From: Opitutia bacterium ISCC 52
GTDB taxonomy: Bacteria; Verrucomicrobiota; Verrucomicrobiia; Opitutales; UBA2995
Assembly (NCBI GenBank): GCA_014529675.2
Contig: CP076040.1
Coordinates: 2,375,894 to 2,439,893 of the forward strand
Length of the DNA stretch: 64,000 nt
Direction: 5' to 3'
Part shown: piece by piece, positions 59,181 to 63,702 of the stretch
Position numbering within the stretch: the first letter of the stretch is position 1
Layout: each line of letters starts with the position of its first letter
The notes under the pieces: generated by a model
Databases searched by the model: none
What the model saw: the letters and a program-made list of their open reading frames with translations, nothing else
What the model was told of the DNA's origin: nothing
Made by a program: the position numbers and the translations under genes

Positions 59181-59972
59181 ATGCCTACTCCGGAGACCAT
59201 TTTGTCTGTGACAGACTTAACCATTGAGCGCGACAAAGCGATTCTGGACCATGTAAACTGGATCATTGAACGTGGACAGAATTGGGTAATCCTAGGTCCT
59301 AATGGCTCCGGAAAAACCTCTCTTTTAAAAACCCTGGTTGGATATTTTCCTCCCACGAGTGGCAAAATTTCTGTCTTAGGCAAAACCTTCGGGCGCAGTA
59401 ATTGGAACGACCTTCGATTGAGAATTGGTCTTGTGTCGAGTTCTCTACAGCAGCGAATTGAAGAAAATGAGCCAGCTATCGACGTGGTCGTTTCGGGTAA
59501 ATACGCCCAGATCAATTACTGGGGTCGTATGTTCAAAAAGGACAAAGAACGGGCTCGCACCTATATGAAGTTACTAGGCTGCGAAAACCTGGAAGGAAAA
59601 ACCTGGATTACGTGTTCCCAAGGAGAAAAGCAGCGATTGCTCATCGCCCGATCCATGATGGCAAAACTAGAAATCCTCATTCTGGATGAACCCTGCGCTG
59701 GGTTGGACCCAGTCTCACGAGAGCACTTTCTTGAGACAGTATATGGCCTAGCTAAAAGCCGGCCCGACCTCCCTATCATTTTAGTGACTCACCATGTTGA
59801 AGAAATCACGCCAGCATTTACTCATGCGCTTCTATTAAGTCATGGCCAAGTGGTAAGCCAGGGAAGACTGAAAAAATCACTGACATCAAAGAATCTATCT
59901 ACTGCCTTCTCAGCTCCTCTGCGTCTTCGAAAATCTTCGAACCGCTACCAGCTAAAGATAGAAAAAACGTAA
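59181..59972 (+). CDS. ABC transporter ATP-binding protein (YlmA-like)
   Basis: A 263-residue single nucleotide-binding domain: Walker A LGPNGSGKTSLLKTL, signature CSQGEKQRLLIARSM (variant of LSGGQ), Walker B LEILILDEPCAGLDP and the switch His in LVTHHVEE. There is no permease gene beside it. The variant signature and lack of a partner fit YlmA/ModF-like soluble ATPases of uncertain role. It is convergent with the gspE relic (16-base gap). Confidence 0.85.
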   Translation: MPTPETILSVTDLTIERDKAILDHVNWIIERGQNWVILGPNGSGKTSLLKTLVGYFPPTSGKISVLGKTFGRSNWNDLRLRIGLVSSSLQQRIEENEPAIDVVVSGKYAQINYWGRMFKKDKERARTYMKLLGCENLEGKTWITCSQGEKQRLLIARSMMAKLEILILDEPCAGLDPVSREHFLETVYGLAKSRPDLPIILVTHHVEEITPAFTHALLLSHGQVVSQGRLKKSLTSKNLSTAFSAPLRLRKSSNRYQLKIEKT

Positions 59973-59988
59973 TCGATACCACGATCGA

Positions 59989-61823
59989 TCAAGTCCCTAG
60001 CTGCTCGAAAATCCCAATCAAGGGCAGCAACAAGGCGATGACAATAAACCCGACTACGATGGCCAAAAATACGATCATGAAAGGCTCCAGTATGGAAGTA
60101 AGTCCCGATATAGTTGTATCGAGTTCATCTTCATAATCGTCGGCCACCTGATTCAACATTTCAGGAACCGTTCCGGTTTCTTCGCCCACCTCAACCAAGC
60201 TACACAGTATGTCAGGAATTTGCTTGGCATGTATCAGCGGCTTGGAGATTGGGTCTCCATCCCTGACACGAGAGTAGATTAGGGATTCCATTTCAGGAGT
60301 TATATTCATGATTTCAAAGATTCCGATCCGACCTCGATAGCCAGTACCGTTGCAAGCTGGGCAGCCGGTTCCTGCACGCCAGTCATGTTTCTGCTCCGCA
60401 TCCAAATCACTTTTTATGACAGAAAGATCCAGGTCGCTCAGAGAAACAGGCTCACTGAATTCGGCACACACACGGCGCACCAGACGCTGCGCCATGATCG
60501 CACGGACAGAACTTGAAATTAAAAATGGCTCAACACCTAGATCACGAAGACGCGATACTGCACTGGGAGCATCATTGGTGTGAAGGGTGCTAAAAACGAG
60601 ATGCCCGGTTAAGGATGCATTGATTGCAATTTCAACCGCTTCCAGATCTCGAATCTCACCCACCATGATTATGTAGGGTGCCTGACGAAGCATAGCTCTT
60701 AGGCCAGCTGAAAATGTCATACCGATTTCGCTGCGAGCCTGAGCTTGGTTTATCCCAGAGATTTGATACTCAACAGGATCTTCGACAGTGATTATTTTGC
60801 GATCAGGCTTATTTAAATAGTTGAGACAAGAATACAAAGTGGTCGATTTGCCGGAACCGGTTGGTCCTGTGACCAAAACAATGCCATCCGGATTGGAAAT
60901 AAGTTTCTCTATCTGTTCCTGGTCGTACTCCCAGAATCCGAGTTCTCCGAGGCCCAGCTGCAGGCTTTCTTTTTCGAGCACACGCATAACGATGGTCTCG
61001 CCGTGGGCACTGGGAATAGAGGACACACGGAAGTCTAGCAGCCGGTCTTGCAAGTCCAGCTGGATGCGCCCGTCTTGGGGCAGCCTTCTTTCCGCAATGT
61101 TCATTTGGGACATCAGTTTGATTCGGGAGATAATAGCAGGTTGGAGGCGCTTCGGGGGGCTTTCAGTCTCCTGAAGCACACCATCAACCCTAAAACGAAT
61201 TCGAAAGCTTTTTTCCATTGGCTCAAGGTGAATGTCGGAGGCACCCCGTTTTAACGCTTCTTTGATAATCAAATGGACAAATTGAACGATTGCACCGTCA
61301 TCTTGGCTGTCGGAATCCCCTTTGGGTAGGTTCGGAGTCATCTCAGCCTGTTTCTCAGAAATTTCCTGATAAAGGGGTTTAAGGCCTTCCGAGTGCTCCG
61401 GAAAAAATCGAAGTACAGCATTTTGAAACCCACTATTTGCGCTCAAAACGGGTTCTAAATCCAATCCGAATTGCTGCGCCAACTCATCTACATGTTCAAA
61501 ATGCAGTGGATTGATGATGGCTGCCTTTGCGGATCCTGCTCCTAGATCATAAATCAGGGTTTGAGATTCAAGAATAGAACTACGATCCTGGTATTTATGC
61601 TCAATCTGAGCTGAATCTAAAAATGAAAGATCAACGATGGATAAACTGAACTCCTCAGCCAGGAGCTCGAGGATCTGCTGTTCGGTGGAAAACCTTCGGA
61701 GATCAATCCCTCGATCAGGGTCTGCCCCGGCTTTAAAACGTCTTTAAGCGAATCGAGCGCCTCGGGAGCAACGATCGACTTCTCGACTAATAGTTGTAGA
61801 GAAATCTCATCACAGCTCTTCAC
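59989..61823 (-). pseudogene. GspE/PilB ATPase with N-terminal frameshift, fused in frame to the C-terminus of GspF/PilC
   Basis: ATG 61823 gives the N-domain (LQLLVEKSIVAPEALDSLKDVLKPGQTLIEGLISEGF), and the frame is lost at the A4 run 61689-61692 (plus strand). One added base restores STEQQILELLAEEFSLSIVDLSFL in the downstream frame. The ATPase core is complete (VTGPTGSGKSTT, TVEDPVEYQ, MVGEIRD, STLHTND), but the Zn cluster has three of four Cys. At about 60275, after ITPEMESLI, it switches to GspF-like sequence: VRDGDPISKPL, VEVGEETGTVPEML and the last TM helix of the inner-membrane platform protein. The end of GspE and about three quarters of GspF are missing. The type II secretion/type IV pilus function of this product is probably lost. 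Confidence 0.82.
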
Positions 61824-61839: not shown

Positions 61840-63702
61840 CTATCGATTCACCTGCATCAAGAACTCAATATTGGTAGAGGTCTTTTTCATCCGAGTGATA
61901 AGCATCTCCATAGCTTCGGTGCCGGGGACACCCTTCATAGCTCTCCTTAGAGCATAGATGCGAGGTAGCTCATCCTTATGATATAAGAGCTCCTCTTTCC
62001 TCGTTCCACTCTTTTCCAAATTAATGGCTGGGAATATGCGTTTGTCGGAGAGAGATCGGTCCAGATCGAGCTCCATATTACCCGTTCCCTTAAACTCTTC
62101 AAAAACAACTTCGTCCATCTTACTACCGGTCTCGACCAGAGCAGTACCCATAATCGTAAGACTTCCGCCTCCTTCAATATTTCGAGCTGATCCGAAGAAC
62201 CGTTTGGGCTTCTGCAAAGCACCCGCTTCCACACCACCCGATAAGATCTTACCACTATTGGGCATCATGGTATTGTAGGCACGAGCAAGACGAGTAATTG
62301 AGTCGAGTAGAATAATGACATTCCTACCCATTTCCACCATACGACGGGCTTTCTCGATAACCATCTCAGATACGTGCACGTGATTATCAGCGGCTTCGTC
62401 AAACGTTGAAGCAATGACCTCACCTTTTACCATACGACGAAAATCAGTTACTTCTTCGGGGCGCTCATCAATGAGCAGAACGATTAAGTCCGCATCTGGA
62501 TTATTGGCTGCCAACGAATTGGCCAGCCCTTGAAGAATGATCGTCTTACCCGTTCTAGGTGGAGCCACAATCAATCCACGTTGACCAAATCCGATAGGGG
62601 TCAATGCATCCACAACCCGCATTGAGACATCCTGATTCTTAATATCCTCAACAGGAGTCTCCAAAATGATGCGCTCTGTTGGGTAATAAGGAATCAAATC
62701 TTCAAAAGGTGTAATGTGTTGAATCTCTTCAGGCGCCACACCAGAAGCAGAAATCAAATCCACAACATAGCCGCAGCCATTCCCTACCTGGGGCAATACC
62801 TGCACATCTATCATATGCCCTGATTTCAATCCGTGTTGCTTGATAAAAAGATCTGGAACGTAGAAATCCTGGGCATGAGGAACATAATTATTATGCTCGT
62901 GAACGATGAAAGCACCTTCATCTTCTGTTACCCATAAAAGACCTGTATCCAAGATGGGGCGTTTGTGCTCCACTCCATACTTGATCAGAAGATCCAGGAG
63001 CATCCGCTTGTTGGGCGCGGTTTCAAAAGTTACGCCAACTTCCTCAACAGCAGTTACAAATTCCAATAGCGGTAGTTTATAAAAATCATTGAGCTTAATG
63101 GGATCTCCACCACCTGATCCTTCGTCAGCTAAGAACTTAAGATCCTTTATGCTTTTGATGGTCTCATCTTCCAAAAGATTGCCGAGAGGTGGCAGTACGA
63201 TCGAATCAACGGCTTTTCTTCTACCCTTCTGTGGTTGATGCCTCTTCTTTGCCTGCTTCTTGGGCTGGTTCTGGTGGTTGTGCTTCCCGTGCTTTTTCTT
63301 AAAATTTCCCTTCTGGTACTTTTGCCTACGGTTCTGGTGCCTGCCGCCCTGTTGATTATTGTTATTATTATTGGTATTGTCCTGAGGCTTTTGGTTCTGC
63401 TCTTTGACAGGTGCTTGCTCCTTCGAAGGCTTTTCATCAGCCGGTTGTCCCGGTTCGCTTACATCGTTGGGGTCAAATGAGAAGGAGACTTCATTTCCAG
63501 GATCAAAGGAATCATCCTTAGCTGGCTTCTCAGATTTTTCCGCCTTCGAAGATTCATTAGAATTTGAGGAGGACTCAGCCTTGGGGCTGCGTTTCCGGGC
63601 CGTTTTCCTGGCGGCACGTTTGCGAGCCGGTTTTGCAGCTTTCTCAGTATTATCTGAGCTCACCTGGCTACTGTCTTGGATGGGAGATTCGTCTTCGGAC
63701 AT
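61840..63702 (-). CDS. rho: Transcription termination factor Rho with long low-complexity N-terminal extension
   Basis: A 620-residue protein. Residues ~1-180 are low-complexity: Lys/Arg/Ala-rich ([15 protein letters not shown]), acidic, then Asn/Gln- and Lys/Gly-rich. The conserved Rho core follows: RNA-binding OSB fold ([15 protein letters not shown]), Walker A APPRTGKT, Walker B-type [16 protein letters not shown], the Q-loop [22 protein letters not shown] and [12 protein letters not shown]. It is a hexameric RNA helicase that ends transcription. Such extensions occur in several phyla and may aid RNA binding or phase behaviour. It sits 16 bases from gspE, on the same strand. Confidence 0.95.

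Follow-up and report, generated by a model that had tools for sequence, protein, structure and literature searches.

The coding region on the minus strand at positions 59989–61823 of the window (the whole stretch of 64,000 nucleotides that was analysed) joins most of an ATPase to the end of a membrane platform protein, and with a probability of about 0.92 it reflects the recent decay into a pseudogene, specific to this lineage, of a rho-linked motor cluster for a type IV pilus. A single in-frame deletion of ~3.9 kb across the genes for an ATPase (E1), PilT, a second ATPase (E2) and a platform protein (F) would have produced this chimera, and a separate change in E1 would have cost that gene its frame. 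At the hisG locus, the PilM-to-PilQ stretch would have disappeared, probably no later than about the time of divergence from the closest relative found (genome G005), with the motor cluster then breaking separately in the two lineages; it would have decayed because its pilus was gone, and no working product would be expected from the chimera. We infer this order of events, as well as the lack of function and the recency of the chimera. Decay by deletion and frameshift of this kind is common in bacteria.

Anatomy of the fused frame

The fused frame is open on the minus strand from 61740 to 59989, where it comprises 583 residues followed by a stop codon. Its earliest ATG, GTG or TTG codon, a TTG at 61482, gives a protein of 497 amino acids. 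In this protein the Pfam domain T2SSE (PF00437) extends over residues 59–405, matching positions 2–333 of the 370 profile positions (435.7 bits), and T2SSF (PF00482) extends over residues 401–487, matching positions 37–125 of 125 (66.1 bits); these profile ends indicate an ATPase without its C-terminal end and a platform domain without its start. The NCBIfam model scoring best on the truncated ATPase is GspE (518.3 bits, cut-off 630.25), followed by PilB (494.3 bits, cut-off 675.65).

The larger part of the ATPase (60271–61689, minus strand) corresponds to residues ~46–518 of the 561 residues of E1 in G001, a genome of the same genus, and is missing the last 43 residues; the chimera ATPase is 72% identical to the intact G001 protein over their common part and contains the motif GPTGSGKST, which we take to be Walker A. 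Alignments place the junction at ~60270/60271 on the minus strand, in frame, after the equivalent of G001 E1 residue 518. What follows (59989–60270, minus strand) is the end of a PilC/GspF-type platform protein, consisting of its last 93 residues and the stop codon, equivalent to residues 280–372 of G001 F; as read from the sequence, this piece covers the final part of the second T2SSF repeat, including the last transmembrane segment. The N-terminal start of E1 (61690–61823, minus strand) lies in another frame: from a GTG at 61823, ~45 codons are in frame and show 62% identity to G001 E1 residues 1–45, while residues 46–518 match the second frame, the shift being located near 61690. A first-pass annotation of this DNA had described an ATPase running in frame into the last ~95 residues of a platform protein at about 60275 and a frameshift near the N terminus, and both features are real.

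Since the E1 side of the chimera, together with the end of rho, shows ~90% DNA identity to G005 in a single aligned piece from the junction, and since the platform tail shows 68–70% identity to F from G001, G004 and G002, a chance match can be dismissed. The rho gene (61840–63702, minus strand; Rho_RNA_bind and ATP-synt_ab domains) is situated upstream of E1, and a similar gene occupies the matching position in G001, G002 and G005, where the end of the contig cuts it. Downstream, a convergent gene for an ABC transporter ATP-binding protein (59181–59972, plus strand) is separated from the chimera by 16 bp between the two stops; it is the neighbour in G001, G004 and G005 as well.

The intact cluster and the extent of the deletion

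In G001, the interval from rho to the ABC gene contains, after rho, E1 (561 aa), PilT (360 aa), E2 (560 aa) and F (372 aa). The DNA of the window's genome (G000, a single contig of 4.8 Mb) aligns to residues 1–518 of G001 E1 and then straight to F from residue 280. The G001 interval corresponding to the junction at 60270/60271 measures about 3.9 kb (3891 bp when calculated from rounded residues, ~3905 bp from residues 518 and 280) and holds the end of E1, the whole of PilT and E2, and residues 1–279, or three quarters, of F. An intact homologue with the missing part is thus present at the rho/ABC locus of G001, as would be looked for in a deletion pseudogene. The internal deletion proposed by the first-pass annotation is therefore borne out, but not as an event within an adjacent gspE–gspF pair, as it spanned four genes and removed PilT and a second PilB/GspE-type ATPase.

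Searches of the G000 genome with F, PilT and E2 of G001 and with the Pfam profiles T2SSE and T2SSF returned only paralogues of the missing PilT, E2 and remainder of F, and relocation of these genes within the genome was rejected on this ground. Of the eight matches to PF00437, one is the chimera, three are other E-type ATPases, one is a broken PilT-like gene, two are weak and one is just above the cut-off solely together with its neighbours; of the five matches to PF00482, one is the chimera, and two further F-type proteins account for a pair each. An assembly error at the junction, hiding an intact cluster, is very improbable. Although a single genome of the species was compared, its assembly is one 4.8 Mb contig with nothing but paralogues of the lost genes, and the independent frame loss in E1, a gap at the hisG locus and a different deletion in G005 (both described below) point to true loss.

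As judged from the sequences, the cluster appears to be a slightly better fit to the motor of a type IV pilus than to a type II secretion system (T2SS), because intact E1 scores higher as PilB, because PilT is part of the cluster, and because E1 co-occurs with PilM. With NCBIfam models, G001 E1 reached 597.7 bits for PilB versus 583.4 bits for GspE, each below its cut-off, and G001 PilT reached 446.9 bits, above the cut-off. Counter to this assignment, the best model of G001 F is GspF (361.3 bits, versus 341.0 bits for PilC, below the cut-offs), and E2 is a tie (PilB 604.5 bits, GspE 604.3 bits, both below the cut-offs). G001 E1 carries an MshEN domain (36.8 bits), and G001 F has two T2SSF stretches.

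Across 53 genomes (G000 and 52 relatives), 27 have both E1 and PilM and 20 have neither; four have E1 without PilM (G000, G005, G007 and G027) and two PilM without E1 (G014 and G029), corresponding to a Fisher p of 1.3e-8 when related genomes are counted as independent. The thresholds, at least 435 bits for E1 and at least 50 bits for PilM, were chosen after viewing the lists; the E1 set takes in both broken copies, and G004 was scored as neither. The PilM matches of G007 and G027 are weak and fall below the threshold, that of G027 being near the cut-off.

Different lesions in the closest relative

In G005, E1 is interrupted by a premature TGA and by another loss of frame, and has neither the deletion nor the frame loss of G000. 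The PilT frame of G005 is open, its product being 88% identical to G001 PilT. Further downstream, G005 has an in-frame deletion of its own, which joins the first 28 residues of E2 to the last residues of F (L044:11608-11739) and which is smaller, ~2.8 kb in G001 coordinates. Because the lesions of the two genomes differ, those of the motor cluster most likely arose separately after the lineages had split. An ancestral lesion, in E1 or by deletion, common to both genomes was considered and rejected, as the alignment shows no lesion common to them and the two deletions are not the same. Given that E1 is broken in G005 too, recent loss is the simpler reading. Both joins preserve the frame; two independent deletions would do so by chance about once in nine cases, and we gave it no weight.

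A platform tail joined in frame to the ATPase was found at none of the 29 E1 loci of relatives, G005 included (L015-L043, with flanks of up to 1.5 kb), and the idea that the fusion is a conserved architecture was rejected for this reason. G002 has kept E1, E2, F and a PilT that is divided between two contigs. In G004, an assembly of 88% completeness in ~900 contigs, F and part of E2 are present at a contig edge, and the searches found nothing close to E1 or PilT. The search for the motor cluster in G003 gave no close match, the best identities being 25% for F, 37% for PilT and 44% for E2. G006 and G007, which belong to another genus of the same family, have kept E1 and E2, with F located elsewhere and no close match to PilT.

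Loss of pilus genes at other loci

No protein of G000, G003 or G005 matches the PilM profile (PF11104), of which G001 has one match; in a wider search G002 gave one match and G004 none, the hisG contig of G004 starting at PilN. As a control of the profile, 9 of 14 control genomes match PF11104.

Near hisG, G001 encodes PilM, two proteins at the PilN and PilO positions (named by position, with no family match) and PilQ. G001 PilM matches Amuc_1101_fam (NF045709) with 214.3 bits, below the cut-off of 650, and G001 PilQ matches Amuc_1098_fam (NF042912) with 375.8 bits, below the cut-off of 750. Matches to PilN, PilO and PilQ are kept at the hisG locus of G004. The locus in G005 has kept an ExeA-like gene of the AAA type and a GspB-like gene (as we provisionally label them) and a response regulator gene, with no match to any gene from PilM to PilQ. 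In G000 (L212:9639-10262), residues 1–134 of the 259 of the ExeA-like protein are butted directly to residues 1–98 of the 243 of the response regulator, and the PilM-to-PilQ stretch which G001 has between these two genes is missing. Relative to G005, about 5 kb are missing from this locus of G000, the BLAST pieces overlapping by 10 columns at the junction. The loss of the PilM-to-PilQ stretch may be common to G000 and G005. The hisG locus of G003 (L211:2226-4279) has a piece of PilQ flanked by pieces of the ExeA-like and response regulator genes, together with a piece of a carbon-nitrogen hydrolase gene; judging by their sequences, these fragments suggest a third separate loss of the pilus within the genus.

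The genome of G000 contains one secretin gene, at 4109419, inside a T2SS-like cluster; its best model is GspD (312.9 bits, cut-off 351.35), and the secretin search of this genome found no pilus secretin besides this GspD-type one. Three secretins were found in G001 and two in G005; G003 gave three secretin matches, two of them being adjacent pieces, one with a stop. The second secretin of G005, whose counterpart is absent from G000, is 84% identical to another secretin of G001 and only ~26% identical to G001 PilQ, and is therefore not the PilQ of G001. The genes of this secretin pair are located at G001:C1:15564-16061 and G005:C30:2739-3236 (L181, L182), in frames of 637 and 638 aa.

The single PilT-like gene found in G000, 2099265 (L054:5263-6365, equivalent to C1:2099262-2100364), has lost its frame in the last third, and no intact PilT was detected in this genome. 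The frame is kept in G001 and in G005, the contig of the latter spanning only the later part of the gene. Two PilT-like genes in tandem, with open frames in G001 (L195), have a G005 match in pieces and in more than one frame (L194:2145-5081, C16). Overall, the pilus served by the motor cluster appears to be gone or dead in G000.

Surviving secretion-type genes

The T2SS-like cluster of G000 is situated at 4.10–4.12 Mb. Its E, F, D, K, I and G frames are all open; GspG alone scores above the NCBI cut-off, the other five being below, and the protein at the J position has no Gsp match. The first-pass annotation had suggested that either the system is dead or another copy exists, and had called for a genome search for further gspE, gspF and gspD genes. 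That search did bring to light a separate cluster with E, F and D of its own, and the pilus does appear dead, so that the either/or does not hold. The possibility that the chimera is the only T2SS motor of the genome, with type II secretion dead as a result, is negligible: while GspE is indeed the best-scoring model of the truncated ATPase, its intact homologue gives PilB a slight edge over GspE and stands in a cluster with PilT, and the frames of the T2SS-like cluster are open.

An ATPase gene in G005 matching the third E-type ATPase (G005:C30:57530-59098) contains a TAA; the G000 copy, at 4102012, is open. G000 moreover has an orphan gene for a PilB-like ATPase (G000:C1:2886314-2887933, L052), open and preceded by a frame of 168 aa, and an orphan gene for a PilC-like protein (G000:C1:4609152-4610165, L053), likewise open. 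From these two genes, a second pilus-like system may be present in G000.

Selection on the ATPase and possible function of the chimera

Between G000 and G005, the dN/dS ratio of E1 over 513 codons is 0.107 (95% bootstrap interval 0.073–0.147). The corresponding ratios of neighbouring genes are 0.060 (0.032–0.109) for the ABC gene, 0.041 for a topoisomerase, 0.036 for an aminotransferase and 0.029 for an aldolase, and that of intact E1 between G001 and G002 is 0.075, at near-saturated dS. The ratio of E1 is thus raised, yet far under 1, with an interval overlapping that of the ABC gene, so that a direct signature of long relaxed selection is absent; the lesions may have arisen recently, or else constraint on the ATPase part lasted through most of the time since the lineages diverged. 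We rejected dN/dS as a proof of decay, the rise over the four neighbours (0.029–0.060) being suggestive only. Among 385 sites that are identical in G001 and G002, 13 are replaced in G000 and five in G005, and at five more G000 and G005 differ from one another as well as from G001 and G002; the excess of 13 over five is not significant (p = 0.096). One replacement in G000 E1 changes a cysteine to phenylalanine. This cysteine is present in all four intact E1 proteins aligned and is the second of four cysteines seen in the alignment, presumably those of the four-cysteine zinc site of PilB/GspE ATPases.

These data also bear on whether the chimera could be retained by selection, as a membrane-tethered ATPase made from TTG 61482 without the N-terminal domain and perhaps assisting the surviving T2SS. 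The 497 codons that are open, the intact Walker A motif, the preservation of the frame by the deletion and a dN/dS well below 1 all fit such a protein, which we nevertheless consider quite unlikely. The MshEN domain of intact E1 is not in the 497-aa frame, having been lost or left out of frame by the change near 61690; the ATPase has lost its last 43 residues, the profile match ending at position 333 of 370, and its conserved cysteine has become phenylalanine. The last transmembrane segment is the only one left, whereas the channel of the PulF trimer is described as being built jointly by TMS1 and TMS3 (PMC10790770). The fusion is, besides, absent from G005, whose E1 is broken, and from all 29 loci of relatives. 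A scan of the minus strand between 59900 and 62000 gave no sigma-70-like site, which is weak evidence, as scans of this sort carry little force and read-through from upstream into the gene is possible. Structure prediction of the 497-aa frame from an alignment of eight rows was uninformative (mean pLDDT 39.6). A membrane-anchored ATPase, suggested earlier as a product that could in principle be made, is thus allowed by the open frame, but a working one is unlikely.

Comparison with known systems

When compared with the PilB/GspE family (PF00437; TIGR02538/TIGR02533), the chimera has a catalytic region that is recognizable, with Walker A, over profile positions 2–333 of 370, but differs from its members in the N-terminal domain being out of frame, in the absence of the last 43 residues and in the replaced cysteine. 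Its tail of 93 residues is that of a PilC/GspF protein (PF00482; TIGR02120), but only one partial T2SSF repeat out of two and the last of three transmembrane segments are left. Among open-licence PMC articles returned by searches, titles and the starts of abstracts described no GspE–GspF or PilB–PilC fusion; for a scar, such an absence is what one would expect, and it does not point to novelty.

The Amuc_1098 PilQ is located in the outer membrane of Akkermansia muciniphila (PMC4960237). G001 resembles this verrucomicrobial kind of type IV pilus (Amuc_1101/Amuc_1098) in having PilM and PilQ near hisG, albeit with scores below the cut-offs, whereas in G000 nothing matches PilM and the sole secretin is of the GspD type. 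The data suggest that the pilus has been lost, by different lesions, in three of six genomes of one genus (G000, G003 and G005, the latter two being drafts). In two of these genomes some motor genes have outlasted PilM and PilQ, which makes the order of decay testable.

Loss of a type IV pilus followed by decay of its genes, through pseudogenes arising by deletion and frameshift, is a process of a general kind. G000 and its relatives conform to it in that their lesions differ and the loss extends over several loci; they depart from it in that both sister lineages were left with in-frame joins of ATPase and platform protein that differ in genes and size. The open frame is a scar of the deletion, and a warning against annotating such frames as new fusion proteins: the chimera is an ordinary decaying gene, not a new kind of protein.
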